From Porphyridium purpureum (taxonomy: Eukaryota; Rhodophyta; Bangiophyceae; Porphyridiales; Porphyridiaceae): DNA of 64,000 bases. Of the stretch, positions 19,312-53,542 are shown piece after piece. Position 1 is the first letter of the stretch, and each line of letters starts with the position of its first letter. The DNA is taken from contig VRMN01000005.1 of the NCBI GenBank assembly GCA_008690995.1, positions 806,001 to 870,000 of the forward strand. The letters are read 5' to 3'. The position numbers were made by a program, and so were the translations under genes. The notes beneath the pieces are model-generated. The model was not told the origin of the DNA, made no database searches, and was given only the letters and a program-made list of their open reading frames with translations.

Positions 19312-21715
19312 CGTGCAACACATAACCCACACCGCCACGTGATCACCACGAAGCACACCTTTCAAAACCCCCTCCGAAACACACCTCAACATCCCCGCCC
19401 CGCCCTCTCTCCCTTTTCTCGTCCCCTTCAACACTTTGTCATCACGTGCCCAGTGCCTCATCCACTCCTCGCTAAAACACACCCACTTTGATAGCAAGAT
19501 ACAAACACGTCCGCCCCTCCCGTGTTTGTTTGTGTTTTCGTTGTCCTTCTTTCCTGCAGCCTTGGACAAAATGCACGCGTGACGCGGATGAGCGCGCAAC
19601 TCTAGTAAAACAGCTCTGTTTGGCTATATCGCCAGGACACTCTTCCTCTTTCTCTCGGCTCCGCCTCCTTGTTCCTCCCACCAACCCGCCGACGCGTCAG
19701 CGCAAGAGGTACAGCTCGCGCCTTCATTTTTACGCATGGTTTTGTGATTTTTTTTCCGCCCTTGCGTTCTTGGTACCGCGCGGCTTGGAACGCAGCCCGT
19801 CCCAGAAAGAAGTAAAATAAAAAATAACACGTCAGGCCACGTTCGAGGCTGAGAGAAGGAAGTGGACACGCACGAATGAGCGTGTGTGGGTGATCAGGCG
19901 TGTGGTGTCGCGTTCGAGCGTGGCCGCTGGAGCTGGATCCGGTGCGCGCGTCTCGTCAGAGTTGCGTAGCTCGGCTTGGTGGACATGAGAGTGCCGCGGT
20001 GAATTGCCGTGCAGGCGGGGGTATCGCCGCACGCGCGCGCGAGGTAAGGTGCGCTGAGGCAAAAACGTTTGCGTGCGAATATAACTGGAGCTGCATCGGC
20101 GGTACAGTGCGGCGTGGGCGTGGCTGCGTGTGATATGTCTTGAGGTGCGCTTTCGAGAGCTCAATTGGCAGTTGTGCGCGTAAGAAGTGGGCTTCACGAA
20201 CCACGCACGGACGTGTTCGGCACGTAGCGTGTGCGTCGTGCAGAAGCGTGGCACTGGACGGCAGCCGGCACATCTCCGGCACTGAAAGTGGTGCACGATA
20301 CTACGCTTAAAAGCGGCCTGGTAGGGGAGAAGCATCGAGTTGCAAGCCGCCGGACTATATTCCTGCGCAAATGGCCCGTCTGGCCTTGCGGCTAGGTGAT
20401 GATGGAAATGGAGCGTGCACAGTCTAGTTTAGGCGCCAAAGCCAGGCGTGTGGCGCGTTGACACGAAAACATGAGGTGCTCATCGTGGACCCGAAAAGGG
20501 GTTCTCGAAACGACAGACGAAGCCTTCACTCCCCCAGAAACACGGTAACCCGAGCTCTGATGGAATTTTCGTTTGTCCATCGTGCACTTCGCCGCAGTAC
20601 CATGTAGCACCGCACACAATCGGACGCCTACAAAGACTGTGATTCTGAACGGAGGATGCGCTCTTTTCGCCGAACGCCAAAGTGTATCCTCACATTGCGC
20701 TGGCTGCTCGTCGGTGAACGGCGCAAGAAAGAAACCTCACCTCGCGCAGGCGCAGCGGCCTGCTGGAGAGTAGACAAGACAGCTCGCCCGACGCTGCTTA
20801 ACGCTTCATCGTTCAGAACGCTTGCTTGTGCCGAGCAAGTTCTTTTGGTCATTGTGGGGATCCTTTCCACGAGGAACAGACGTCACGAAAGGGTCGTATG
20901 CAAAAATGCTAAATGCATGCACAGCAGAGTGTTAAAAGTCGACAGTTTCCGCCACTGCACCGCTGTTGTAGCCGAGCAACGCAGGGGTCGAACTTTGAGA
21001 TGCAGTGTCAAAGACTTGTAGAATCTAATTTGGCCGACAGGTGCACGTCTAGAACATGGTGTTGCTGTTCATGAAACTTGGCGATCTATCGTGATTGTTT
21101 CGGACACGTGCACGTCTTTCTCGCTCGCGCCGAAGAGGGCGAGATGACAAAGTATGAAATGCATGCGCCATGCGGTAGATTCGTGCATCGAGGGACGGGT
21201 TCCGGCATTTCTTTTTTCAGAACAGAATATCACACCGTTCTCTTCACAACGTCTTGCTACCTTTTCTTGTCAGCGGTCTGGCCTCTGTTGAATCTGTACG
21301 AACATCGGTTGAGAAATGCGGCTTGAATGATGATTCTTTCAGACCTTGCCAGAGCCACACTCTTCTGTTGTGTCTGTGTACATGACGCCCGTCAATCACC
21401 TGAATCTTGATTTTCTTCAATTCCACACTTTGGCCATGCCGTTCCATGCCTCAGAACGTACCGTGGTGTGCTCGCCTGGTTTGGTCCTGCACTGACAAGG
21501 CGAGCGTCCAGCTCTACAAGGCATTGGTCAAATGGCTAGTGCGAAAGGACGCATGCAGATGAAACCAAATGTTTGCCTACGCATGCTTGTCGGCTTTAAT
21601 TTCCACGGGTGGTAACGCACATTTCCCGCATATGACGATCGTTCTGGACTCATGAGACGGCCAGTCGCATTGCTGTGGCTAGCAAATGGCTCGCATTGGC
21701 GTATAGCTGAATTAA

Positions 21716-21987
21716 ATGCACCTGAGTAGCGAGCGAATACGTGTGGAGGATCTTGTTGGAGAACTGCGTTGGTCCTTCAAAAAGGCATTGTCTGGACTAA
21801 AATGTTTTGGCCGTTTGCTCGAGCGATCTTCTTCACGTCAGAGCGTATATCCAATACGTTTGGCTACTCTTCACCGTCATTCATGCTTCAACTTGCAACC
21901 ATGATGCGGGACAATGACGCGGAGAATGCACGTTTTGTTTCCACCCCTGCATACGATACTGTAGCGGACGCGAAGCTCGGTAAGTGA
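21716..21987 (+). pseudogene. Coding-like fragment, possible gene remnant
   Basis: Two overlapping frames contain protein-like stretches (EDLVGELRWSFKKALSG, then FARAIFFTSERISNTFG...PAYDTVADAKLGK) that shift from one frame to another. No family was recognised, and the span is short, so chance cannot be excluded. Confidence 0.2.
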
Positions 21988-38956: not shown

Positions 38957-40387
38957 CTAAGCTGGCGAGTCTTCAAACACCAGTTTTTTCAGATGCAAAA
39001 ATGAGTCGAGACTTATGCCTCGTTGGGCCAGCTCCTGCTCCGCGCACAGACATGCTTCGCGCGCACGCGCCGTGAAAATTGCGTGCTTAATAACCTCCAA
39101 CGCTGTCGAACAAGCGCCCTGGCTGGTGCTCAAACTCTCCGCCGCTTTGCCAGTGGCACTGGCGGAGCGTGCCGCAGAGCTTATTTTCGAGATACACGAT
39201 CGCGCTTCGACGAGCTCGCCGCGCGCAATGGCGGCGTAAATCTTTCCGGGAGACTCTGCCACGGCAGCCCACGCAAACACACGTTGCACCAGTGCACGGA
39301 CTAGGTCCAATGCCTTGACCGAGTCCGTTTCATACCGAAGCACTTTGACCAACGTTCTCACCTCCTTTTCGTGGGTTGAACCCGTTCCTGGCCTGGGGCC
39401 GGGTCCAAGCGCGTGTCTCTCTGAGCTGTATCCCGTGGCCTGGTGCTGAGCGTTTCCGGACGGATTGGATCCGTGATCCGCCGTCCGTGGGCGTTTCTGT
39501 GGATTCTGCTCTTCATCATTTCGCCATGCCGCATGCCATGATCCACTGTTGCTGGGTTCAGCTGCAACAGGCTTTCTCCGGAGGATCTCCTGATTCCGCG
39601 GACTCTCCTCGCTACCCCACAGACTTGCAATGCGCCGTTTCGGAACAGGCTTCGTCGACTCTGCTGCTCCGGCGCTCGCATTCTCTGTCTTGCCGCCAGA
39701 CTCCACGCCAGCGGTGCTCGGATTGGGCGCTGTGGACGTCCGAATATGTGCTGCAACCCCTTCCGGGTCGCTTGCGACACGATCCCGCACCGCTCCTTCC
39801 AATTGCGCCAGAGTCATGCCCAGTACTCTCGGCGCCTGCACGGCGTGCGCATCTGGGCCACTTCCAGCGACGGGATTCCAGCGCATGCAGCACCACGTGC
39901 CGTGTTCCAAGCTTGCCTGCTCGCTAGCATTCTCATGCGCGCGAGATGGAGTGCATATGCATGGCACTCTCGTTAATTCTGTAGCGTACGCCCTGAGCAT
40001 GGACAGCTTGTCTGATCCAGCAAGGGCGGTCGAATCTGTCGAAGCGTTGAGCGCACCTCCCTTTGACACGGCTCGCGCGGCTTCTCCATCCAATGCGCTA
40101 GACGCTGCCGCAAGCTGTGGCGCTTTCGCAGCTGCGTTCTCACTCTGTGCGCGAGATTGCTGGACACCTGGTGGCGGTGCGCCCGCTTCGCCCAACTTGC
40201 GCGCGGGCGCAGCCATCCGCTCGCGTAGCAGCGAACCGTGCACCAAAACAGAGCGCGACACGTCGAGCGGCAGCAGCGCGCTCTGCACGCGCGGCAACAG
40301 AACATCCGCGAATGAGCTGTCCCAGCGCGCATCCAGCGCCGCTTGGATCCGCATCATCTCTTGCTCCTTTTTCGGTTTCGCGTCCAT
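38957..40387 (-). CDS. Hypothetical protein
   Basis: 476 residues, ATG 40387. Begins with a charged helix (KKEQEMMRIQAALDARWDSSFADVL). The middle (80-330) is Ala/Ser/Glu-rich and probably disordered, with a cluster CICTPSR...GTWCCMRWNP near residue 145-170. The last third (about 345-470) looks helical: VRTLVKVLRYETDSVKALDLVRALVQRVFAWAA, then EVIKHAIFTARAREACLCAEQELAQRG. No family was recognised. A basic KRRIASLW and KRPRTADHG might be nuclear signals. The antisense frames are shorter and lack domains. The single long frame and consistent codon use support a real gene. Confidence 0.65.
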   Translation of the reverse strand: MDAKPKKEQEMMRIQAALDARWDSSFADVLLPRVQSALLPLDVSRSVLVHGSLLRERMAAPARKLGEAGAPPPGVQQSRAQSENAAAKAPQLAAASSALDGEAARAVSKGGALNASTDSTALAGSDKLSMLRAYATELTRVPCICTPSRAHENASEQASLEHGTWCCMRWNPVAGSGPDAHAVQAPRVLGMTLAQLEGAVRDRVASDPEGVAAHIRTSTAPNPSTAGVESGGKTENASAGAAESTKPVPKRRIASLWGSEESPRNQEILRRKPVAAEPSNSGSWHAAWRNDEEQNPQKRPRTADHGSNPSGNAQHQATGYSSERHALGPGPRPGTGSTHEKEVRTLVKVLRYETDSVKALDLVRALVQRVFAWAAVAESPGKIYAAIARGELVEARSCISKISSAARSASATGKAAESLSTSQGACSTALEVIKHAIFTARAREACLCAEQELAQRGISLDSFLHLKKLVFEDSPA

Positions 40388-40661: not shown

Positions 40662-43600
40662 TTACGCGCGCTGCAGGAGCTTGACGATTTTGCGCGAATC
40701 GCGGTGCAGTATGAAGTCGCGCTGCGAAAACGACGCGCTCTTGTAAAATGCGTCCAGGTTGAGCGTCTGAATGCCGAGCTCAGCGGCACGCGCCTCAAAG
40801 TCGTCCAGTTCGAGCTCGACCTGCCCGGACGCCGCCACCTTGTGGCGATTTGCGCTGGCATAGTCACGAACTAGCGCAGTGAGCACGTAGAAAAGAATGT
40901 CGTTGGCGTTGCGCGCGTACTGCAGGAAGCGGTGGAAAGTGCGCTTGAGCCCGCGCATCACCGAGTACTTTTGGCTCTGGAAGAATGATTCGAGCACAAT
41001 GGCGATCGCCGCGTCAAGGTCCTGGTCTGTCACATACTCGCGCAGGTGCATGCGCGCATGCGCCTCGGTGATGCGCACAAGAGACTCGAGGTGTCGCACG
41101 GAGATGGGCAAACCGCCCGTAGCCACTGACTCGTGCCTCAACTGCACGTATAACCTCGTGAGCTTGTCCTCATCCAGATTATTGAGCCGCGGCTGCACGA
41201 AGCGACGTGCATACAGGAGATACTTGCGCAGCGTCGTCTGAGGAATCAGCTGGATACCCGAGTCACTCATGAGTGCGTCACCGAGACCGCTCTGCGGCAC
41301 CCTCGGCTGGTCGCGGCTGTAGGTTTGGTTCGCGTCCATGGCCAGCTCCATATCGTCCTTGGGATGGGATGCGACGTGCGAATCCACCACAAACTTGGCC
41401 AGAGTCTCGTCCGCGCTCGCGTCTGGATGGTCCCGCACCACAAGCAGAATGTCAAATCGCGAAAGGATTGGCTCCGTAAGGTCGACATTCTCGAAGAAGG
41501 ATAGAGACGGGTCGTAGCGGCCCTTCAGCGGGTTGGCCGCAGCTATCACGGAGCAGCGCGCCTGCAGACTTGTGACAATCCCGGCTTTTGAGATCGAGAT
41601 GCTTTGCTGCTCCATGGCTTCATGAATTGACGTGCGGTCTTGATCATTCATCTTGTCAAACTCGTCAATGAGGCAAACACCGCGATCCGCAAGGACAAGC
41701 GCGCCGCCCTCCAGCGTCCATTCGCGCGTGACGGGGTCCTTGCGCACTGCGGCGGTGAGGCCAACGGCGGATGCGCCCTTTCCGGTTGTGAAGACCGCGC
41801 GGTTGGCCGTCTTTTCGATATACTTCAAAATCTGTGACTTGGCTGTGCCCGGGTCGCCCAGGAGCAGCACGTTAATATCGCCCCTGGTTCGATGACCGTC
41901 ACCGACCACTTTAGAGACGCCGCTGAACAGCGCGTGCGCCACGGCGGTTTTGATGTCACGGTGCCCGTATATGGATGGCGCGATCGATGCCACGATGCGC
42001 TCGGCAATGCGCGGATCCGCGGCCAAGGTGCGCAACTCATTCATGTCCTCATCGCTAAGCTCAATGTCGGCGTGCGCGTCTTCCATCTTCCGCACGTGGT
42101 TCGCGTGGATGCCCGTGGAAAATACCGGGAAGCCGTTCTTGATGTTTGCGCTGATGTCCACATTGTGCTGGAAAATGCCGGTGACCTCGATCTCGTCACC
42201 CGGCCGCGCCATGTCGATAAGATCTCCTGTCATGATCACATCCTTGTAGCGCGGAAGACGGCCCGCAGGAACGCTTCCCGGAGCCTCCTGGAGCGTGAGC
42301 TTTTGGTAGTTCCCAAAGATACTCTGCTCCGAGTTCACGGAAAACGGCCCGCGAGAGCCGCACTGCGGGCAGTGCTGGACCATCCTCTCAGGCTCAGCGT
42401 GCGAGGTCGCATGTGGGCTCAGCACCTCACCACAGGCTCGGCAGTCCAGCTTTACGAGCTTGAGCTGCGGAAAGACGCTCGTGCGCCGCGTCACGACACC
42501 ACCCACTTTGATCAGGCAGTTCAGATGGATGTGCCGGATGTCGCGCAGGTTGTCTAGGATGGGCAATTCGGCAATACGCACAAATACTTCCGGGTGGATC
42601 GCGCCATATTCGGGGAAGAACTCGAGGGTGACCTGGAACGCCTCGCTGTCTAACAGGGGTAGCATCTCGGCCGGTGCGTCTGCCACCCACACCGCAAGCA
42701 CAGGGTCATAGCTGACGAGGTGACCGTATGAAACCACCACGCTCTGCCGATTCTCCGCGCACATGATGCGAATCTTGCTTTTGTACACAGAGGCGCCGGT
42801 CCGGTCGTCCGAGCAGTGGCGTAAAAAGTCGCCAAATCGCCGGCGCACATCGCGCCGCACGCGCTCTTGCTTTAGCCAGTCGGACAGCGCACCCTGGACA
42901 TTCTCAATTGCATAGTTGGGATCATCGTCGAACGCCAGCTCAGCGTCGCCAGACATTCCCACAGAGCCGGCACGGCCCAATAGCGCTGTAGCGGCCGAGC
43001 CGTTCTGGCTGTATGACGGCGTGGAGCGGTCGTCTGGCGACGGCACGTCACCGTTTTGATTCGCAGCGGCACCAGACGCCAGCGCGTGATTCACGTTGCG
43101 GCGGAAGCCGCGCGGCACGGGGCCAGCGAGTGGCTCGTCGGGGCCCAGAAGCGCGGCGGGCAGCCGACGCAGAGCGCCGGTTCGATCATTGAAGCGGCCC
43201 TCGGCAAAGTCACGTTGCTGCATAATACGCTCAGCATCTCGGCGCGTGCGCGGGTCCAGCCGCGAGGCGCTCTCGGCCTCGGCGACAGAGTCTACTTCAT
43301 AGCGGTCCAGCTCCTCGACGCGCTCGTAATCCTCCATGAGCTCGTCACCATACAGGTCCTCGCCTTCCTCTTCCTCCTCGTCTCCGTCGCCATCCTCCTG
43401 ATCAGAGCGCTCCGGGTCGCGATCCGAGTCGTCCTCCCCGGCACCAGCCTCGCCGCGCATCTCGAGGGGCGTCATGGGCGTATGAGGCGTGTGCGGTGTC
43501 GCAGAGAACCGCCGCGGCGTGGGCTGCGAAAACTGGGTTCCTGCCGCAAGCACATCCTCCTCCGCCTCGTCCCCGTCCTCGCGCACCGACTGCACCGCCT

Positions 43601-43703
43601 CCCCTCGCGCGCGAGCCACATGTCTCGTCTGCTCCTCCTCATCTGCGTCCACGTCGTCCACAGCCCGTCGCGCCGCGCGCGTCCTCTTTGTGCCTCCAGC
43701 CAT
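40662..43703 (-). CDS. MCM2: MCM2, subunit of the replicative helicase
   Basis: 1013 residues, ATG 43703. MCM2-7 is loaded at origins and unwinds DNA in S phase. The acidic N-terminus contains the MCM2 landmark GEDLYGDELMEDYERVEELDRYE; this separates it from MCM3-7. Then a C-x2-C...C-x2-C zinc finger (CRAC...CPQC, about 418-450), Walker A GDPGTAKSQ (616-624), Walker B CLIDEFDKM (about 677-685), and the arginine finger SRFDILL (about 749). The C-terminus has the winged-helix region. N-terminal Ser/Thr-Pro sites (TPRRFSATPHTP) suit CDK/DDK control. Two E2F-type sites and a trinucleotide tract lie upstream. Confidence 0.96.
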   Translation of the reverse strand: MAGGTKRTRAARRAVDDVDADEEEQTRHVARARGEAVQSVREDGDEAEEDVLAAGTQFSQPTPRRFSATPHTPHTPMTPLEMRGEAGAGEDDSDRDPERSDQEDGDGDEEEEEGEDLYGDELMEDYERVEELDRYEVDSVAEAESASRLDPRTRRDAERIMQQRDFAEGRFNDRTGALRRLPAALLGPDEPLAGPVPRGFRRNVNHALASGAAANQNGDVPSPDDRSTPSYSQNGSAATALLGRAGSVGMSGDAELAFDDDPNYAIENVQGALSDWLKQERVRRDVRRRFGDFLRHCSDDRTGASVYKSKIRIMCAENRQSVVVSYGHLVSYDPVLAVWVADAPAEMLPLLDSEAFQVTLEFFPEYGAIHPEVFVRIAELPILDNLRDIRHIHLNCLIKVGGVVTRRTSVFPQLKLVKLDCRACGEVLSPHATSHAEPERMVQHCPQCGSRGPFSVNSEQSIFGNYQKLTLQEAPGSVPAGRLPRYKDVIMTGDLIDMARPGDEIEVTGIFQHNVDISANIKNGFPVFSTGIHANHVRKMEDAHADIELSDEDMNELRTLAADPRIAERIVASIAPSIYGHRDIKTAVAHALFSGVSKVVGDGHRTRGDINVLLLGDPGTAKSQILKYIEKTANRAVFTTGKGASAVGLTAAVRKDPVTREWTLEGGALVLADRGVCLIDEFDKMNDQDRTSIHEAMEQQSISISKAGIVTSLQARCSVIAAANPLKGRYDPSLSFFENVDLTEPILSRFDILLVVRDHPDASADETLAKFVVDSHVASHPKDDMELAMDANQTYSRDQPRVPQSGLGDALMSDSGIQLIPQTTLRKYLLYARRFVQPRLNNLDEDKLTRLYVQLRHESVATGGLPISVRHLESLVRITEAHARMHLREYVTDQDLDAAIAIVLESFFQSQKYSVMRGLKRTFHRFLQYARNANDILFYVLTALVRDYASANRHKVAASGQVELELDDFEARAAELGIQTLNLDAFYKSASFSQRDFILHRDSRKIVKLLQRA

Positions 43704-44114: not shown

Positions 44115-45647
44115 TTAATTAATTGTGCGCGGTTCGGGTGCCGCGGGAGCGGGGTCAGCAGGTGCGTGGTGGCGGAGGAACGTGCGGTACGCGCGGATCA
44201 CAAAGTAGTTGTCTGAGCGCAGCTGCTTGGCGCGCCGGATGTCGCTCACCGCGCCCGACCACGACGAGCGGAAGTCGCCGTAGAAGATGCCGACGTCCAG
44301 GGCGAGCAGAAAGTCGGCCAGGTTGCGCTCGAGACCGCCCAGGCCGGCGTCGCCGCGCGTCGCGTACGGTGCGCGCGCCGCGAGAGGCGATGTCCGCAGG
44401 TAGTCCGCGACAGCTTTGGGCACAAACGGAGACATCAGGAAGATCACCTTGTCGATGTTGCCGAGCGCTGATACCCTTCGCTCCAAAAAGTCCAGGAAAA
44501 AGCCGCCTGGAAGCATAATCAGGTTCTCCTTGGTGTTGTGCGTGCCAAGCACGCATATCATTGGCTTGTCGGCATCGGCTTGGTCTGGACACGAGCGCTC
44601 GTTCCATCGTATGTGAACTGCGGCAGTTCGATTCAGCGGCACGTGATCGGAAGGTGATCCTGCGGGGCCGCCCAAAAGCTGTGCCTTGAACGTCGCATTC
44701 ACCTGAAGAGCATGATACAAGCCTGGTACGGGAATAGTGGTTTTCAAAGTGTTCACATTAAAGTCTGCCACAAAGACGCAACTGCTGCCAGCGGCTTGCT
44801 GCGTCGCCTTGTCAATCTGCTGACCAGGGCTCAAGTGCGTTTGAATGCAGTCCAATTGTCCGCTGCACTCACGCACCAGCTCACCAAATACAACCGCGCG
44901 CATACGCGGAAAGTCAAGCCTGGAATCGTCCGTCAAATACTTGGCAAACAAGCCGACGAGCTTTTGCGGAGCTTCGGTGTTCAGATTCCATGCGGTCGAC
45001 GACGAAAGGATTATGCTGTGCTCCGTGGTGCACCGCACACGAGAAAATGTGAACACTGACAAGCTCAGTTCAGTTGGCTCCGTCAATGCACTCAACGAAA
45101 TGGAGCGCGCTGCTGTGCGTTGTTCAGATGCGTTCAAGCGTGCCAGCTCTTCCCTATTGTGCCATGTTTCGACGATTTCTGGCATCACGAGCCTGCCGCG
45201 CAGCAGCTCAGTCAGTTTGAACGCGTTGTTTATCACCATGAGTTGATTGCCGAGTCCGAACGCGTACAATGGTGGTTGAATGACGAACACGTTCCGGCTC
45301 GCCAGCGATGAAAGCTTTCGTACGTCTTGATTGGCGCGCTGTCTCTGATTTTGCCGATTTGCAAGATTGTCATTCGTCCGACTGGCACCGGAGTCATTCA
45401 GCGCAGCCTCTGCCACGTCGCCCTCGGGAGTATCTACGACATCTGAGAGCTCCACTGTATGATCCAGAACGTCCTCGAACGCCAAATCAGGCGTCCGTCC
45501 GATTTCTGGTGTGAAGAGCAGAGCCGCGCCAACGCAACATATCATCGCGGAAAGCAAGGCCGCGGCGACCAGTGGCGAGGTCCGGGTCGAAGATTCTGGA
45601 CGCGCGCCCACTGTATCGCACCCGGGCCCGGGCCCGGGCGCGCTCAT
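44115..45647 (-). CDS. Fucosyltransferase-like type II membrane protein
   Basis: 510 residues from ATG 45647; the frame opens further up to 45818 without better support. N-terminal (PG)n run, then a membrane anchor at about 25-46 (LVAAALLSAMICCVGAALLF), a Ser/Asn/Gln-rich stem, and a lumenal catalytic-type domain. Landmarks: YAFGLGNQLMVINNAFKLTELLRGRLVMPE (a GNQL box as in fucosyltransferases), AVHIRWNERS, and YGDFRSSWSGAV near the end, like the RSSxS box of GDP-fucose O-fucosyltransferase families. Probably Golgi. The exact family, donor and acceptor are uncertain. Confidence 0.65.
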   Translation of the reverse strand: MSAPGPGPGCDTVGARPESSTRTSPLVAAALLSAMICCVGAALLFTPEIGRTPDLAFEDVLDHTVELSDVVDTPEGDVAEAALNDSGASRTNDNLANRQNQRQRANQDVRKLSSLASRNVFVIQPPLYAFGLGNQLMVINNAFKLTELLRGRLVMPEIVETWHNREELARLNASEQRTAARSISLSALTEPTELSLSVFTFSRVRCTTEHSIILSSSTAWNLNTEAPQKLVGLFAKYLTDDSRLDFPRMRAVVFGELVRECSGQLDCIQTHLSPGQQIDKATQQAAGSSCVFVADFNVNTLKTTIPVPGLYHALQVNATFKAQLLGGPAGSPSDHVPLNRTAAVHIRWNERSCPDQADADKPMICVLGTHNTKENLIMLPGGFFLDFLERRVSALGNIDKVIFLMSPFVPKAVADYLRTSPLAARAPYATRGDAGLGGLERNLADFLLALDVGIFYGDFRSSWSGAVSDIRRAKQLRSDNYFVIRAYRTFLRHHAPADPAPAAPEPRTIN

Positions 45648-45985
45648 CTCTGCCTGTGACCTTTCTAGCAGCTGTCCTCGTGGTGACCGCGACTCATGGA
45701 TGTGCATGTGGATGCTGAAATTGGGATAGGCGGCTTCGGCAGTGTGCAAAGGATTCCAGGGCAGACCGCGGGCGAGCGCGTAAAAGAGACGATGAGAGAC
45801 GAAGGAGCAGAAAAACAAAGAAAGCTATATTCAGGCCAAGGCCGTGCGCTGGCGGGGCGACCACAGCAACGAGAAAATGGTTGATCTTGCGGTCGCGCGC
45901 GTGAACGCTTTCGGCTGTGCTCTTCTTTTTTCCTTTTTCTTTTCTTTTTGCTTCTGGTGCAATAAGGTTCAGCCAAGGTACGTAT
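45648..45985. other. Short intergenic region
   Basis: Leader of the fucosyltransferase-like gene and 3' flank of the next gene; a T-rich stretch at 45925-45955. No gene is seen. Confidence 0.45.
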
Positions 45986-47619: not shown

Positions 47620-50600
47620 TTACCATTCTTCAGCCACGAATGCCTCAATTCGACTGCACGCCTCCTCGAATGCATCCGTGTCGGCGAGCAAACTCACACA
47701 CACCATGTCGCGCACATCAGGCCTTCCGCCGTAAGGTCCGGGCACGCCCGCTACAGGAGCGTGTTGCTGTGCCTCATAGCGAAGCACTGCAGGAAGTACG
47801 AGTACCTTCTTGGCCTCGTACAGCTGCTGACTAAACGCCCACCCTGGAGAGGAGGACCATTCCTGCGGACGCGCAACATCATTTCTGACGATGGTGGTCT
47901 CCTTGTCGGCGCTGCGGTTACCGTTGCCCTCGTCCATCCGATTGAAGCCCCGCGCTTTGCGAACTCGAAACATGAGACTTGTAACGCCGTGCTGCGGCGC
48001 GTGTACCATCTCAAGGCTATCCACGAGTGGAGCCAAGCGCTTACGTGCTGTCTCATAATTATGCTGCAGGGCGCTGTGTAGCACACCGAAAGACAGCGTC
48101 TCCACTGCCACCGCGAGTGCAGAGAGCACAAACGGACTCATTTCCAACGGAAAGAATGACTCGCTGGCCGCTCGAAGACGTTGCACAAGCTCGCTCGTGG
48201 TGACAGTACCGCCGAATTGATTCCCACCGTCGTCTGCGGTATCGCTGCTCGGATCCATGCACACTAGCCATCCAGTTCCCCAACCGGGCAGACCCAAGGT
48301 GAGATCTGCGCTGCCAAAGACCAAAACCGGTACCTTCCAGTCCACACTGAGCGCGCCGGTGCACCAAGCCGGTGTGTGGCCGGAAGTACCTCTTGCGGCA
48401 CCATTCGCTGGTTCTCGCTCGGACCTTTTGCTGTCTGCAGACAGCAGACCGGACGCATAGTCGTCAATGATAACCGGGATCGACATGCTTGCTGCAAGAT
48501 ATGACAAGCTCAGCGCGTTTGATTCGATCCACGCTGCGCCGTGCGCGTTTGCATCTATTGAAGCAATCAAAATAGCTACAAACCGCTCATTCATAAGCGC
48601 ACGGATTTCAGCCATATCGACTGAACATGCCGCGTGTGGGTTCACCGTGTAGCGTTTGATCTCAAAGCCCATACTTTCAGCAGTGTGTCTGACAGATTCT
48701 CGACACGGGTTGGGCAGCAAAATCGCCGGACGAAGCGCGCGAACGCCTGGTTTGTTCCCACTTGGAGAACGGCTGTCAGCATGCGCGGCACGCAGCGCGC
48801 CTAGGATCAAATACAGTGCAGCCTGATCGCTCGAAGTCAGGTGCACGTGCAGAGCCGTACCGGTGCGTTTTCCTAGCTCAGAATACCACTCTGCCAATGC
48901 CCTTTTGCACACCTGCGCCGCCCGGTCTTGCTCATCCGCGTCAAGCGTTCCAACCATCGCTCCAACCATCGCAGCACTTGAGCGCTCCGCCATCAGGCCG
49001 AGAACTTTGGCGGAAAGGCTTGTGCACAACTCCGTCGCTTGGAATGAACGAAGTTGCCCTGACAAGTCCACTTTCTGCAACGCCGAGCTTGCGCGTTGCG
49101 CTGCGCGCTCAAACGTGATACGTCGAATGAATCGCCGTGTCGAGCTCTCGAAACGGTCGATCGGAGTACGACTGTCACGCCGGACGGGCTGCCCAGTTTC
49201 GCTCGCGTCAGATCTTGTGGGTACGAGCAGGTCTGCCGCACGCGCGCGGCCCAGTATACCCGGCATCAGATTCTGCCTCCTCTCGAGTTCGCAAACTTCG
49301 CAATGCATGCCTGCGTGCCGGTCTATTTCGTCCCGCGGCACCAGCGAACGGCACACTGGACATGGTATGCGCTGCGCATCCGAGCTCTTGTTCTGAACGG
49401 CGCGAGAGAAATTTTCCAGTGCAAGCGAGTCCTCGACAGTCCCTGAGTCGCCACCTGTGCTCACGATCCTTTCCTTTTGCACAAACGAGTCCGCCATGGC
49501 CATGAGCGCTTTCTTCGCTTGATCATCTAGCGACAGAAAGCCGGCTTGGGTTCTGAAGGTGTCATCACCGGGTGCACCAGTGCGATTGCGACGACGACGG
49601 AGCTCGACCTCGTCCACAAGCTGGGAAACAGGTTTTTCTTCGTTGGACGCAAAGCTTGATGCAATGAAACCAAGCGCCTCGTCGGCAGAAGACGCGCCCT
49701 GTCGGTCTCCTGTCGGCCTGAAGCGCTTGTCGAGAAATGCGCGCTCGCTTTGCAGTACAGGATCATCAAAGACAGTCGGCTGGATGCGTTCCGAGTTGTC
49801 CTTGTTTTCTTCCGTTTGGGAAGACAGAGAGCTTGATTGAGCCCCTCGCACGGGCGTTCCGCGTTCGCTTTTGGGCGTCGTTGACAACGGCGGGGGCGGC
49901 GGGGGCGGCGGCGTCGGAGGAGGAGGAGGTGGTGGTGGTGGGACAACAGCGTATGGGTCATCTCCAAGGTCATCAGCTTGATTTGAACCTGCTTGCTTTG
50001 TCGCATCCGTGCCTTTTCGAATGCGCGTCAACATCTCGTCCTCAAGACTCTGAGGCACAGCAGGAGGACGCAGAGCTCGTTCGGATATAGGCAATGAGGT
50101 AAGCGCAATGGAGATGCGTTCTCGATCCATGCCTGGCTCTGCGCGACCCGTTTCAGCAAGCACACTGGCATCCGCAGAAGCCTTGTCGGGAACACGTCGG
50201 ACATCCTCGCCGCTGGTCTGTGCATCCTGCTCGTCTTCAGAGGGCGCACTAGCGAGACTCTCAGCACTGTCGGTGTCTACGGGCGCGCGCTCACGCAACG
50301 AACGAATTGTGCCACCCACCTGCGCCGAGGCCCTCCAACGGCGCCTTCGTGACTCGTTCGGATTGATGGCCGGACCTGAGTCCGGGCCGGAGTCTGCCTT
50401 TAGCTCACTGTTCTTATCTGCAGCCTTTGGTCGTCCCCTGCGCTGCGGCTTCACTTTCGGCACCGCCTCTGGATTCTGCGGCGGCGACGCTCGCCGCTCT
50501 TGCGCGCCAGCAGCATGCTCATCGCTGTGCTGATCACCATGCGCTGCTGCATCTCCGTCCCGCCCTGCAGTTGTCCAACACACCAAGCTACGCGAGCGCA

Positions 50601-50661
50601 CGGCGCGCGGCGCGCGAGCAGCCGGGGCCACCGCCCACGCACATCCGGAGTCTCCCGCCAT
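47620..50661 (-). CDS. AT-hook/zinc-finger protein fused to a tyrosine-aminotransferase-like domain lacking the catalytic lysine
   Basis: 1013 residues from ATG 50661 (the track upstream begins at TTG). Order: AT-hook-like RRGRPK (74-79), Ser/Glu/Ala-rich linkers, a proline run (241-258), a zinc finger C434-x2-C437-x11-H449-x3-H453 followed by C454-x2-C457 that resembles ubiquitin-binding UBZ fingers, a helical stretch (500-590), and a C-terminal class I/II aminotransferase fold (about 595-1013). The fold aligns well with tyrosine aminotransferase: LTSSDQAALYLILGAL, AESMGFEIKRY, VIIDDYASG, VPVLVFGSADLTLGLPGWGTGW. In the last block the PLP-binding lysine position is Leu787 and the usual Arg after PGW is Gly795, so catalysis is unlikely. 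Probably a nuclear adaptor; function unknown. Confidence 0.75.
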   Translation of the reverse strand: MAGDSGCAWAVAPAARAPRAVRSRSLVCWTTAGRDGDAAAHGDQHSDEHAAGAQERRASPPQNPEAVPKVKPQRRGRPKAADKNSELKADSGPDSGPAINPNESRRRRWRASAQVGGTIRSLRERAPVDTDSAESLASAPSEDEQDAQTSGEDVRRVPDKASADASVLAETGRAEPGMDRERISIALTSLPISERALRPPAVPQSLEDEMLTRIRKGTDATKQAGSNQADDLGDDPYAVVPPPPPPPPPTPPPPPPPPLSTTPKSERGTPVRGAQSSSLSSQTEENKDNSERIQPTVFDDPVLQSERAFLDKRFRPTGDRQGASSADEALGFIASSFASNEEKPVSQLVDEVELRRRRNRTGAPGDDTFRTQAGFLSLDDQAKKALMAMADSFVQKERIVSTGGDSGTVEDSLALENFSRAVQNKSSDAQRIPCPVCRSLVPRDEIDRHAGMHCEVCELERRQNLMPGILGRARAADLLVPTRSDASETGQPVRRDSRTPIDRFESSTRRFIRRITFERAAQRASSALQKVDLSGQLRSFQATELCTSLSAKVLGLMAERSSAAMVGAMVGTLDADEQDRAAQVCKRALAEWYSELGKRTGTALHVHLTSSDQAALYLILGALRAAHADSRSPSGNKPGVRALRPAILLPNPCRESVRHTAESMGFEIKRYTVNPHAACSVDMAEIRALMNERFVAILIASIDANAHGAAWIESNALSLSYLAASMSIPVIIDDYASGLLSADSKRSEREPANGAARGTSGHTPAWCTGALSVDWKVPVLVFGSADLTLGLPGWGTGWLVCMDPSSDTADDGGNQFGGTVTTSELVQRLRAASESFFPLEMSPFVLSALAVAVETLSFGVLHSALQHNYETARKRLAPLVDSLEMVHAPQHGVTSLMFRVRKARGFNRMDEGNGNRSADKETTIVRNDVARPQEWSSSPGWAFSQQLYEAKKVLVLPAVLRYEAQQHAPVAGVPGPYGGRPDVRDMVCVSLLADTDAFEEACSRIEAFVAEEW

Positions 50662-51964: not shown

Positions 51965-53542
51965 ATGGACCTGGAGTGGTCCGGCGCGCTTACTGCAGAC
52001 GCCGACGTGCGGCTCGAGGTGCTGGAGCCCGAAGAGCGCGTGTACTATGAGGTGGACTTGCTGGATGTGAGTAGCAACGAAAAGACACTGCTGGTGCGAT
52101 GTCTGAGCCCGCTGGGTGAGGCGGCGCGCGCGCAGTGGCGCAGCATCAAGAAGGACGACGGGGACTGCACGAGCGCCGGCACATCCCCGCAGAGCTTGTC
52201 GCGACAGGCGTCTGGAGGAGAAGAGAGCACAGATGACAGCACGGACAGGAAGAACTACGTCACATTTGAGGACGACGCATCAAAGGCAGAGTCGCGCTCT
52301 GTCGATCCGGATGCGCCGCGCGCGGTATGGGTGCCGCGCTCCTGTGTTTCGTTCAGGAAAGAACCAGAGTCTCACGCAGACTACGAGGCGCGTAGGCTGT
52401 ACCAGCCGCGCGCCGGTGGTGATGGCTCGACGGTCGCTGGAGATGCCGTTCTTGCGACCGAGACCAGGTTCGTATTCGAACCTCTGGAGGGAGACGCTGT
52501 CGAAGTACGATGCCGCGAAACAGGCACGGGACCCATTGGGTACCGCGAGGGCTACATGAATGCGATTATTGATGGTTTCTACCACGTCACATACCCAAGC
52601 GGCTCTGACGAAATGGTCGAGTTGAGCCGCATCCGGCCTGCTGGGTTCCGGATACCCGCCGATTTTTGCAAGCAGCGCGTCGTGGTTCCGGACAGTGTGA
52701 AGCAGGACGTGCTTGACACCAGTGACACACTTGTTGAGCTGAAAAACTCGCTGGGGCTTGCGCAGATCTACTTGAAGAAACAGGTGCCCAGCGACCAAGT
52801 CGTATTGGAGCTCGTCGGAGTGCGCAAGGCCATGGCAAACGTGGCTGTTGCAATGGATATCCACTTCCAGCGCGTTGGCAGTTTTGCACGTCTGACGGGC
52901 CTTCAGCGCATTCTCAACGCGCGGCTGGAGAGCGCGAAGATTCAGCGCGAGACTGCATGCACGCTTGTGTTCGAGGTGAGCTCGGACATGATTGGATCAT
53001 GCATCGGAAAGAACGGTACCAATCTAAAGGCAGCACAGCGCATTCCCGGAGTGATTCGTATTCGCGTCGATGATGATCTGCCTCGGGCGATTCACCGCGT
53101 GGAGATTCTAGCCACCTCGAACGAGGCCGCCGAGAAAGCGCGTGACATGATTGATCACGTTCGCGTTCAAATTGCGGTGGACGCGGATGAAATTGGACTG
53201 CTGATTGGGAAAAAGGGTGTGCACTTGCGCGAGATCGAGCAGCGCGCGGGTGTGTCCAAGTTTGTGCTCGTTGATCCACCGCATGCAGTGGGCAGGGATG
53301 AGAATCCGAGCATCGTATCTGAGGACGAACCGCAACTATCTAGCAACAAGAGACCACCCCAGTTTCTGGAAACGGTGGGACCCCGTAAGCAGGTGGCGCT
53401 CGCCGTTCAGCTTTTCAACATGCATCGCTCGTACTTGAGCAAGCAGCGTGAAATGGAGGAAAATGTTCGCAAGCTGCGCGAGCGCTTGGCCCTTGTGGGT
53501 ATCCACACAATCGCTGAAGATGCGGGGGCACCGATTTCTTGA
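51965..53542 (+). CDS. FMRP/FXR-like RNA-binding protein (two Tudor, three KH domains)
   Basis: 525 residues from ATG 51965, the first ATG in frame. Order matches animal FMR1/FXR: Tudor 1 (about 14-50 and 118-132, split by an acidic/Ser-rich insert), Tudor 2/Agenet (about 168-226: DAVEVRCRETGTGPIGYREG, GFYHVTYPSGSDEMVELSRIRP), the PADFCKQRVVVPDSVKQDVL junction, a KH0-like region (235-310) ending in AVAMDIHFQRVG, KH1 with GxxG at 348-351, and KH2 with GxxG at 415-418. The HFQRV/IHFRSL stretch and the KH1-KH2 spacing are FMRP-like. The RGG tail of animal proteins is missing; a coiled C-terminus (485-510) is present. FMRP represses translation on ribosomes. Family call by architecture; orthology is untested. 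Confidence 0.75.
   Translation: MDLEWSGALTADADVRLEVLEPEERVYYEVDLLDVSSNEKTLLVRCLSPLGEAARAQWRSIKKDDGDCTSAGTSPQSLSRQASGGEESTDDSTDRKNYVTFEDDASKAESRSVDPDAPRAVWVPRSCVSFRKEPESHADYEARRLYQPRAGGDGSTVAGDAVLATETRFVFEPLEGDAVEVRCRETGTGPIGYREGYMNAIIDGFYHVTYPSGSDEMVELSRIRPAGFRIPADFCKQRVVVPDSVKQDVLDTSDTLVELKNSLGLAQIYLKKQVPSDQVVLELVGVRKAMANVAVAMDIHFQRVGSFARLTGLQRILNARLESAKIQRETACTLVFEVSSDMIGSCIGKNGTNLKAAQRIPGVIRIRVDDDLPRAIHRVEILATSNEAAEKARDMIDHVRVQIAVDADEIGLLIGKKGVHLREIEQRAGVSKFVLVDPPHAVGRDENPSIVSEDEPQLSSNKRPPQFLETVGPRKQVALAVQLFNMHRSYLSKQREMEENVRKLRERLALVGIHTIAEDAGAPIS

Follow-up and report, generated by a model that had tools for sequence, protein, structure and literature searches.

The window analysed here is a 64,000-nucleotide stretch of the genome of the red alga Porphyridium purpureum (bases 806001-870000 of the 1.0-Mb contig VRMN01000005.1; the genome searched comprises 22.16 Mb in 46 contigs). 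On its minus strand, a single stop-free frame of 1013 amino acids runs from an ATG at 50661 to a stop at 47620 (positions 47620-50661) and joins a low-complexity N-terminal arm and a finger motif to a C-terminal domain that resembles tyrosine aminotransferase but has no Schiff-base lysine for pyridoxal 5'-phosphate (PLP). The evidence supports well the reading of this gene as a real, intact and apparently maintained pseudo-aminotransferase fusion that encodes a pseudoenzyme. The start at residue 1 is plausible, because no other in-frame ATG lies between it and the upstream stop. G+C content differs among codon positions over most of the frame, but this is weak coding evidence: two intervals (672-771 and 722-821) are flat, and similar differences occur in the stretch upstream of the frame, which contains stops. 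The features listed in a first-pass annotation of this DNA were recovered at the same residues, namely Leu787, Gly795, RRGRPK at 74, a proline run at 241-258 and C434/C437/H449/H453/C454/C457.

The C-terminal domain (residues 585-1013; 47623-48909, minus strand) was recognized as aminotransferase class I/II-like by Pfam, NCBIfam, PDB, MAFFT, hhalign and Foldseek comparisons. It scores 24 bits against Pfam Aminotran_1_2 (PF00155; E value, 2.6e-5), above the gathering score of 19.7, as expected of a class I/II superfamily member, and its modelled fold is type I. The match to NCBIfam TIGR01265, which covers tyrosine/nicotianamine aminotransferases, has an E value of 2.2e-11, yet its 43.4 bits lie far below the family cut-off of 292.45, as do the 37.7 bits for TIGR01264 (cut-off, 474.25), and the domain therefore falls outside the tyrosine aminotransferase families as these profiles define them. 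A PDB search returned mouse and human tyrosine aminotransferases at 2.4e-7 and 5.4e-7, and when the protein sequence by itself was compared with 17 aminotransferases by hhalign, independently of any structure model, the result was 98.3% over residues 585-1011. Among the class I/II genes of the genome (25 candidates, nine scored), two were matched by phmmer, L016 (best-domain E value in the set of nine, 3.4e-13) and L015 (4.2e-10); both exceed the TIGR01265 cut-off and fall slightly below that of TIGR01264. L016 is the same gene as L011, and the window domain is 23% identical to L011 and 31% identical to L015. Tyrosine aminotransferase (TIGR01264/TIGR01265; 3dyd, 3pdx, 1bw0) is thus the closest family by sequence and is also top in Foldseek, and comparison bears out the descent of the domain from fold type I enzymes of the tyrosine aminotransferase group. 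Unlike that family, the window protein lacks the Lys, the Tyr and both Arg residues and carries a long N-terminal arm and a finger. The alga's tyrosine-type aminotransferase L016 (L011:1475-3268) has a long N-terminal extension of its own and a Cys in place of the Arg after PGW.

Conservation was assessed in an alignment of 37 aminotransferases, comprising the two enzymes of the alga (L015 and L011/L016) and 35 bacterial sequences, in which 50 columns reach a conservation of at least 85%. The bacterial rows come from among the 80 best of 452 relatives, which had been retrieved with two motifs that include DEIY and PGW[RC]LGW, and conservation of the DEIY and PGWR columns is inflated for this reason; the Lys and C-terminal Arg columns fall outside these motifs. 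The window protein keeps 19 of the 50 conserved columns, against 38 and 39 in the alga's own enzymes, both of which are among the defining rows. Leu787 (codon CTC; 48301-48303) occupies the position of the Schiff-base lysine, which is Lys in all 37 aminotransferases, and Cys988 (47698-47700) that of the C-terminal Arg, also invariant (37/37) and in the same register in hhalign. Within the row-finding motifs, Ala736 (48454-48456) replaces the Tyr of D-E-I-Y (37/37) and Gly795 (48277-48279) the Arg after PGW (36/37; Cys in L011/L016), all on the minus strand. Gly795 alone means little, because of that Cys in L016. A loop Gly is replaced by Ser611, whereas Asn705 and Asp733 are kept. Roles were assigned to these positions by analogy with aspartate aminotransferase, in which we take the equivalents of N705 and D733 to be PLP contacts.

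Both MAFFT and hhalign align the PLP-lysine block with the aminotransferases of the alga without a gap, placing Leu787 at the lysine, and the presence of a tyrosine-aminotransferase-like domain without that lysine, in frame with the finger, was thus confirmed. The assignment of Leu787 to the lysine site is based on sequence alignment and on the succession of strands and helices in the structure model, not on distances, and positions before residue 585 were aligned by MAFFT only. PLP enzymes without the lysine exist, and retention of N705 and D733 would suit a protein that is still an enzyme, acting through a lysine located elsewhere in the chain or through PLP chemistry that needs none; this is most improbable, as no lysine lies between residues 777 and 873 in the sequence (the nearest is K776, so that none occurs within 10 residues of site 787) and the losses extend to the Tyr, both Arg residues and the loop Gly, which is Ser611 here. 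Enzyme function has very probably been lost.

Two decayed relatives of the gene lie on the same contig, a larger copy spanning 738.4-740.5 kb and a small, oppositely oriented copy spanning 797.2-797.8 kb, with DNA identities to the window gene of 69-70% and 66-67%, respectively. Read in the register of the window gene, the larger copy is interrupted by 11 stops and the smaller by 4, and they carry 12 and 5 indels, respectively. The larger copy extends from residue 357 to 156 bases beyond the stop, and a separate 66-base match within it (71%; E value, 1.2e-5) corresponds to the gene start, so that residues ~25-356 are missing. A search of the genome with the first 440 residues turned up, apart from the gene itself, the larger copy and a single weak hit (0.037) and nothing else. 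Codon 787 is CTC (Leu) in both decayed copies, and the simplest reading is therefore that the lysine was lost before the duplications.

Absence of residues ~25-356 from the larger copy, together with a codon-position bias that is not decisive, might suggest that the fusion is an artefact, with the finger and the aminotransferase part belonging to separate genes or some of the N-terminal region being spliced out. This is very doubtful: the frame is unbroken, and matches to the larger copy are collinear over residues 364-1013, which indicates that finger and domain were joined, in the same order, in that copy too. Furthermore, 100 unmatched bases separate its two matching stretches, which is not a clean splice join.

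Substitutions between the window gene and the larger copy number 182/648, 168/647 and 217/648 at codon positions 1, 2 and 3, and 0-fold sites differ less (304/1149; 0.26) than 4-fold sites (131/360; 0.36). With Jukes-Cantor correction of both site classes and the copy assumed to be neutral throughout, the 0-fold rate of the window gene was estimated at 0.31 of neutral (95% interval, 0.04-0.67), and at 0.22 (-0.08-0.61) for residues 521-1013, the aminotransferase part; absence of constraint was reached in a fraction of 0.0005 of 2000 bootstraps. If, as proposed, the lysine was already gone at duplication, these figures show that selection acted on a protein without the lysine, whether or not the copy was then alive, and the lysine-less domain looks maintained rather than decaying. 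The window gene could also be the last of three copies to lose its frame, given that both relatives on the contig are dead and its catalytic residues are gone, but decay of this kind is quite unlikely for a gene with 1013 open codons and fewer differences at 0-fold than at 4-fold sites.

N-terminal to the domain, residues 1-429 (49375-50661, minus strand) form a low-complexity arm that is probably disordered, judging from its composition. The arm contains an AT-hook-like motif, RRGRPK (residues 74-79; 50425-50442), and an 18-residue proline-rich run encoded by mixed CCN codons (residues 241-258; 49888-49941). RGRP, which we take to be the AT-hook core, is present once, within RRGRPK, and DNA binding is only putative. 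The chance expectation of [RK]GRP[RK] is ~0.0065 per protein of such composition, and of the 25 non-overlapping ATG frames of at least 250 amino acids in the window, only the window gene contains RGRP or six consecutive prolines. A Pfam scan of residues 1-520 gave no family, DNA-binding families included, above its cut-off, and no winged-helix family was listed at E values up to 10 (most matches with values above 0.1 are discarded by the filters of HMMER). A Rotamase match at residues 111-152 (0.042) was below the cut-off and was set aside, as were zf-Di19 (0.049) and other Pfam matches to the finger.

The finger itself (residues 434-457; 49291-49362, minus strand) reads C-x2-C-x11-H-x3-H-C-x2-C and is UBZ/TRAF-like by weak matches. 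It conforms to C-x2-C-x11-H-x3-[HC], presumably the UBZ spacing, and the C-x2-C-x11-H portion is common to FAN1, TRAF6 and the window finger. Scores against UBZ proteins are low, both for the NCBIfam rad18 profile (0.0046) and for PDB chains of RAP80, FAN1, Pol eta, RAD18 and WRNIP1 (E values, 0.034-0.48), and the TRAF6 finger, with the same spacing, scores about equally (0.061, first in one PDB search; 0.26, fifth in another). A lysine-biosynthesis protein in the PDB also matches (0.064), and the best Pfam match is not a UBZ family but PRP21_like_P (0.02), followed by zf-WRNIP1_ubi (0.033), both below cut-off. An alignment-based model gives the finger a strand-strand-helix arrangement with low confidence, while a single-sequence model gives two helices and no such arrangement (pLDDT, 65.2; pTM, 0.41).

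Gly451 (H+2) stands where FAN1 has an Asp, to which we ascribe a role in ubiquitin contact. UBZ fingers of the UBZ3 (CCHH) and UBZ4 (CCHC) types contact ubiquitin through D(-4)-A(0)-L(+3) in FAAP20/Pol eta, according to one report (PMC4267625). Of these residues, the window finger keeps the Asp (D447) and has Gly451 and Cys454 in place of Ala and Leu, so that two of the three differ. Given the weak matches and the replaced contact residues, ubiquitin binding by the finger, though possible, is unsupported. The first-pass annotation had proposed that an enzyme fold was recruited as a binding module in a chromatin- or ubiquitin-linked protein. The apparent preservation of a lysine-less domain in one frame with a finger supports this proposal in part; the ubiquitin role is unsupported, in view of the weak UBZ scores, the comparable score of TRAF6 and Gly451 at the FAN1 Asp, and a chromatin role would depend on one AT-hook-like motif.

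A DNA- or chromatin-bound regulator resembling MocR/GabR, with a DNA-binding head and an aminotransferase-like sensor, would account for the placement of RRGRPK and the finger N-terminal of the domain. The layout has a precedent in MocR, in which an aminotransferase-like C-terminal domain lies behind a nucleic-acid-binding part (PMC6522883); MocR has a winged helix, and the characterized MocR regulators bind PLP. The window protein differs in having neither a winged-helix match nor the lysine; with no DNA-binding Pfam family above cut-off and a single AT-hook-like motif, a regulator of this type is unlikely.

We favour instead, with a probability of roughly 0.6, a lysine-less pseudoenzyme kept as a binding module. 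The gene, alone in its small family in being intact, would encode this pseudoenzyme and, judging from one pair of copies, would have changed under constraint since duplication. The domain would form no Schiff base with PLP and would not transaminate, and its aminotransferase fold would persist as a dimerizing or ligand- or partner-binding module. With the finger and the disordered proline-rich arm possibly contacting nucleic acid or a partner protein, the protein as a whole would act as a non-catalytic adaptor. Several points weigh against this reading. Residues 358-520, which include the finger, show no constraint (0.66; 0.05-1.84), and the constraint elsewhere rests on a single pair of copies and covers no part of residues 1-356; if the larger copy spent time alive, the rate figures for the window gene are too low. 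Because genuine aminotransferases made up the alignment behind the structure model, the fold of that model is partly imposed. In addition, with N705 and D733 kept, the protein may still bind PLP or a substrate weakly.

Fold type I enzymes act mostly as dimers, and the lysine-less chain could be a regulatory subunit that pairs with an active tyrosine-type aminotransferase of the alga, since two paralogues (L015 and L011/L016) retain the Lys. The identity of merely 31 and 23% to these enzymes does not favour such pairing, nor does the part before residue 585, which we expect to help build the dimer and which hhalign left unaligned. A precedent is LCB1/SPTLC1, a chain that resembles a PLP enzyme, lacks the PLP lysine, pairs with LCB2 and matters for serine palmitoyltransferase function (PMC3794620). 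By analogy a partner subunit is conceivable but rather unlikely; LCB1 belongs to another subfamily, and its catalytic partner is known. The arm and finger of the window protein set it further apart, as LCB1 is not known to carry a finger or an AT-hook.

Pseudoenzymes are a known kind of protein, as are PLP-fold subunits without the lysine and regulators that resemble aminotransferases; the combination seen here appears unmatched in the collections searched. Among 5.8 billion proteins, residues 430-1013 recovered nothing but the product of the window gene itself at E values of ≤0.01 and residues 520-1013 matched none at ≤1, while a three-row profile retrieved four proteins, all PF00155 members with the lysine kept in 4/4; each search scored ~8,000 candidates sharing most words, in a set apparently poor in eukaryotes, so that absence elsewhere is not implied. 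Two stretches of viral contigs matched a pattern, and neither encodes a relative. In the open-licence PMC literature no fusion of a UBZ or of an AT-hook/zinc finger to an aminotransferase-like domain was found, and among the matches listed for titles on pseudoenzymes and on aminotransferases of P. purpureum there was nothing like the window gene. It is possible, if tentative, that the gene represents a maintained non-catalytic reader or adaptor, made in a eukaryotic lineage from a tyrosine aminotransferase, a finger and a DNA-binding-like arm, as a separately evolved eukaryotic counterpart of the bacterial MocR plan freed from PLP. Functional lysine-less relatives of PLP enzymes appear to be few, LCB1 being the clear case (PMC3794620), and the window gene, whose sister copies on this contig are dead, offers a direct route to ask why the fold was kept after the chemistry was lost.

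In the flanks compared (10 kb; 8 and 6 kb), DNA similarity of the window gene to its copies ends near the gene, and one pair of neighbours, compared directly, was unrelated. Near the two decayed copies, the stretches L009:6539-6807 and L010:3307-3578 are 65% alike, perhaps relics of one duplicated segment; the former, of 269 bases, has no second copy in the genome at the sensitivity of the search. A frame beside the larger copy (L009, 146-2005, minus strand) matches window positions 21563-21823, far from the gene (32% over 87 amino acids; E value, 2.8e-5). Elsewhere in the window, open frames of 476 and 530 amino acids at 38957-40387 and 44115-45707 (both minus strand) have no Pfam match at 0.001, and genes for the MCM2 replication helicase subunit (40662-43703) and an acyltransferase (PF01553; 53903-55057) lie on the same strand. 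The plus strand at 51965-53542 encodes a 525-amino-acid FMRP-like KH protein, with best PDB matches to FMR1 (4.6e-10) and FXR1 (1.2e-5).
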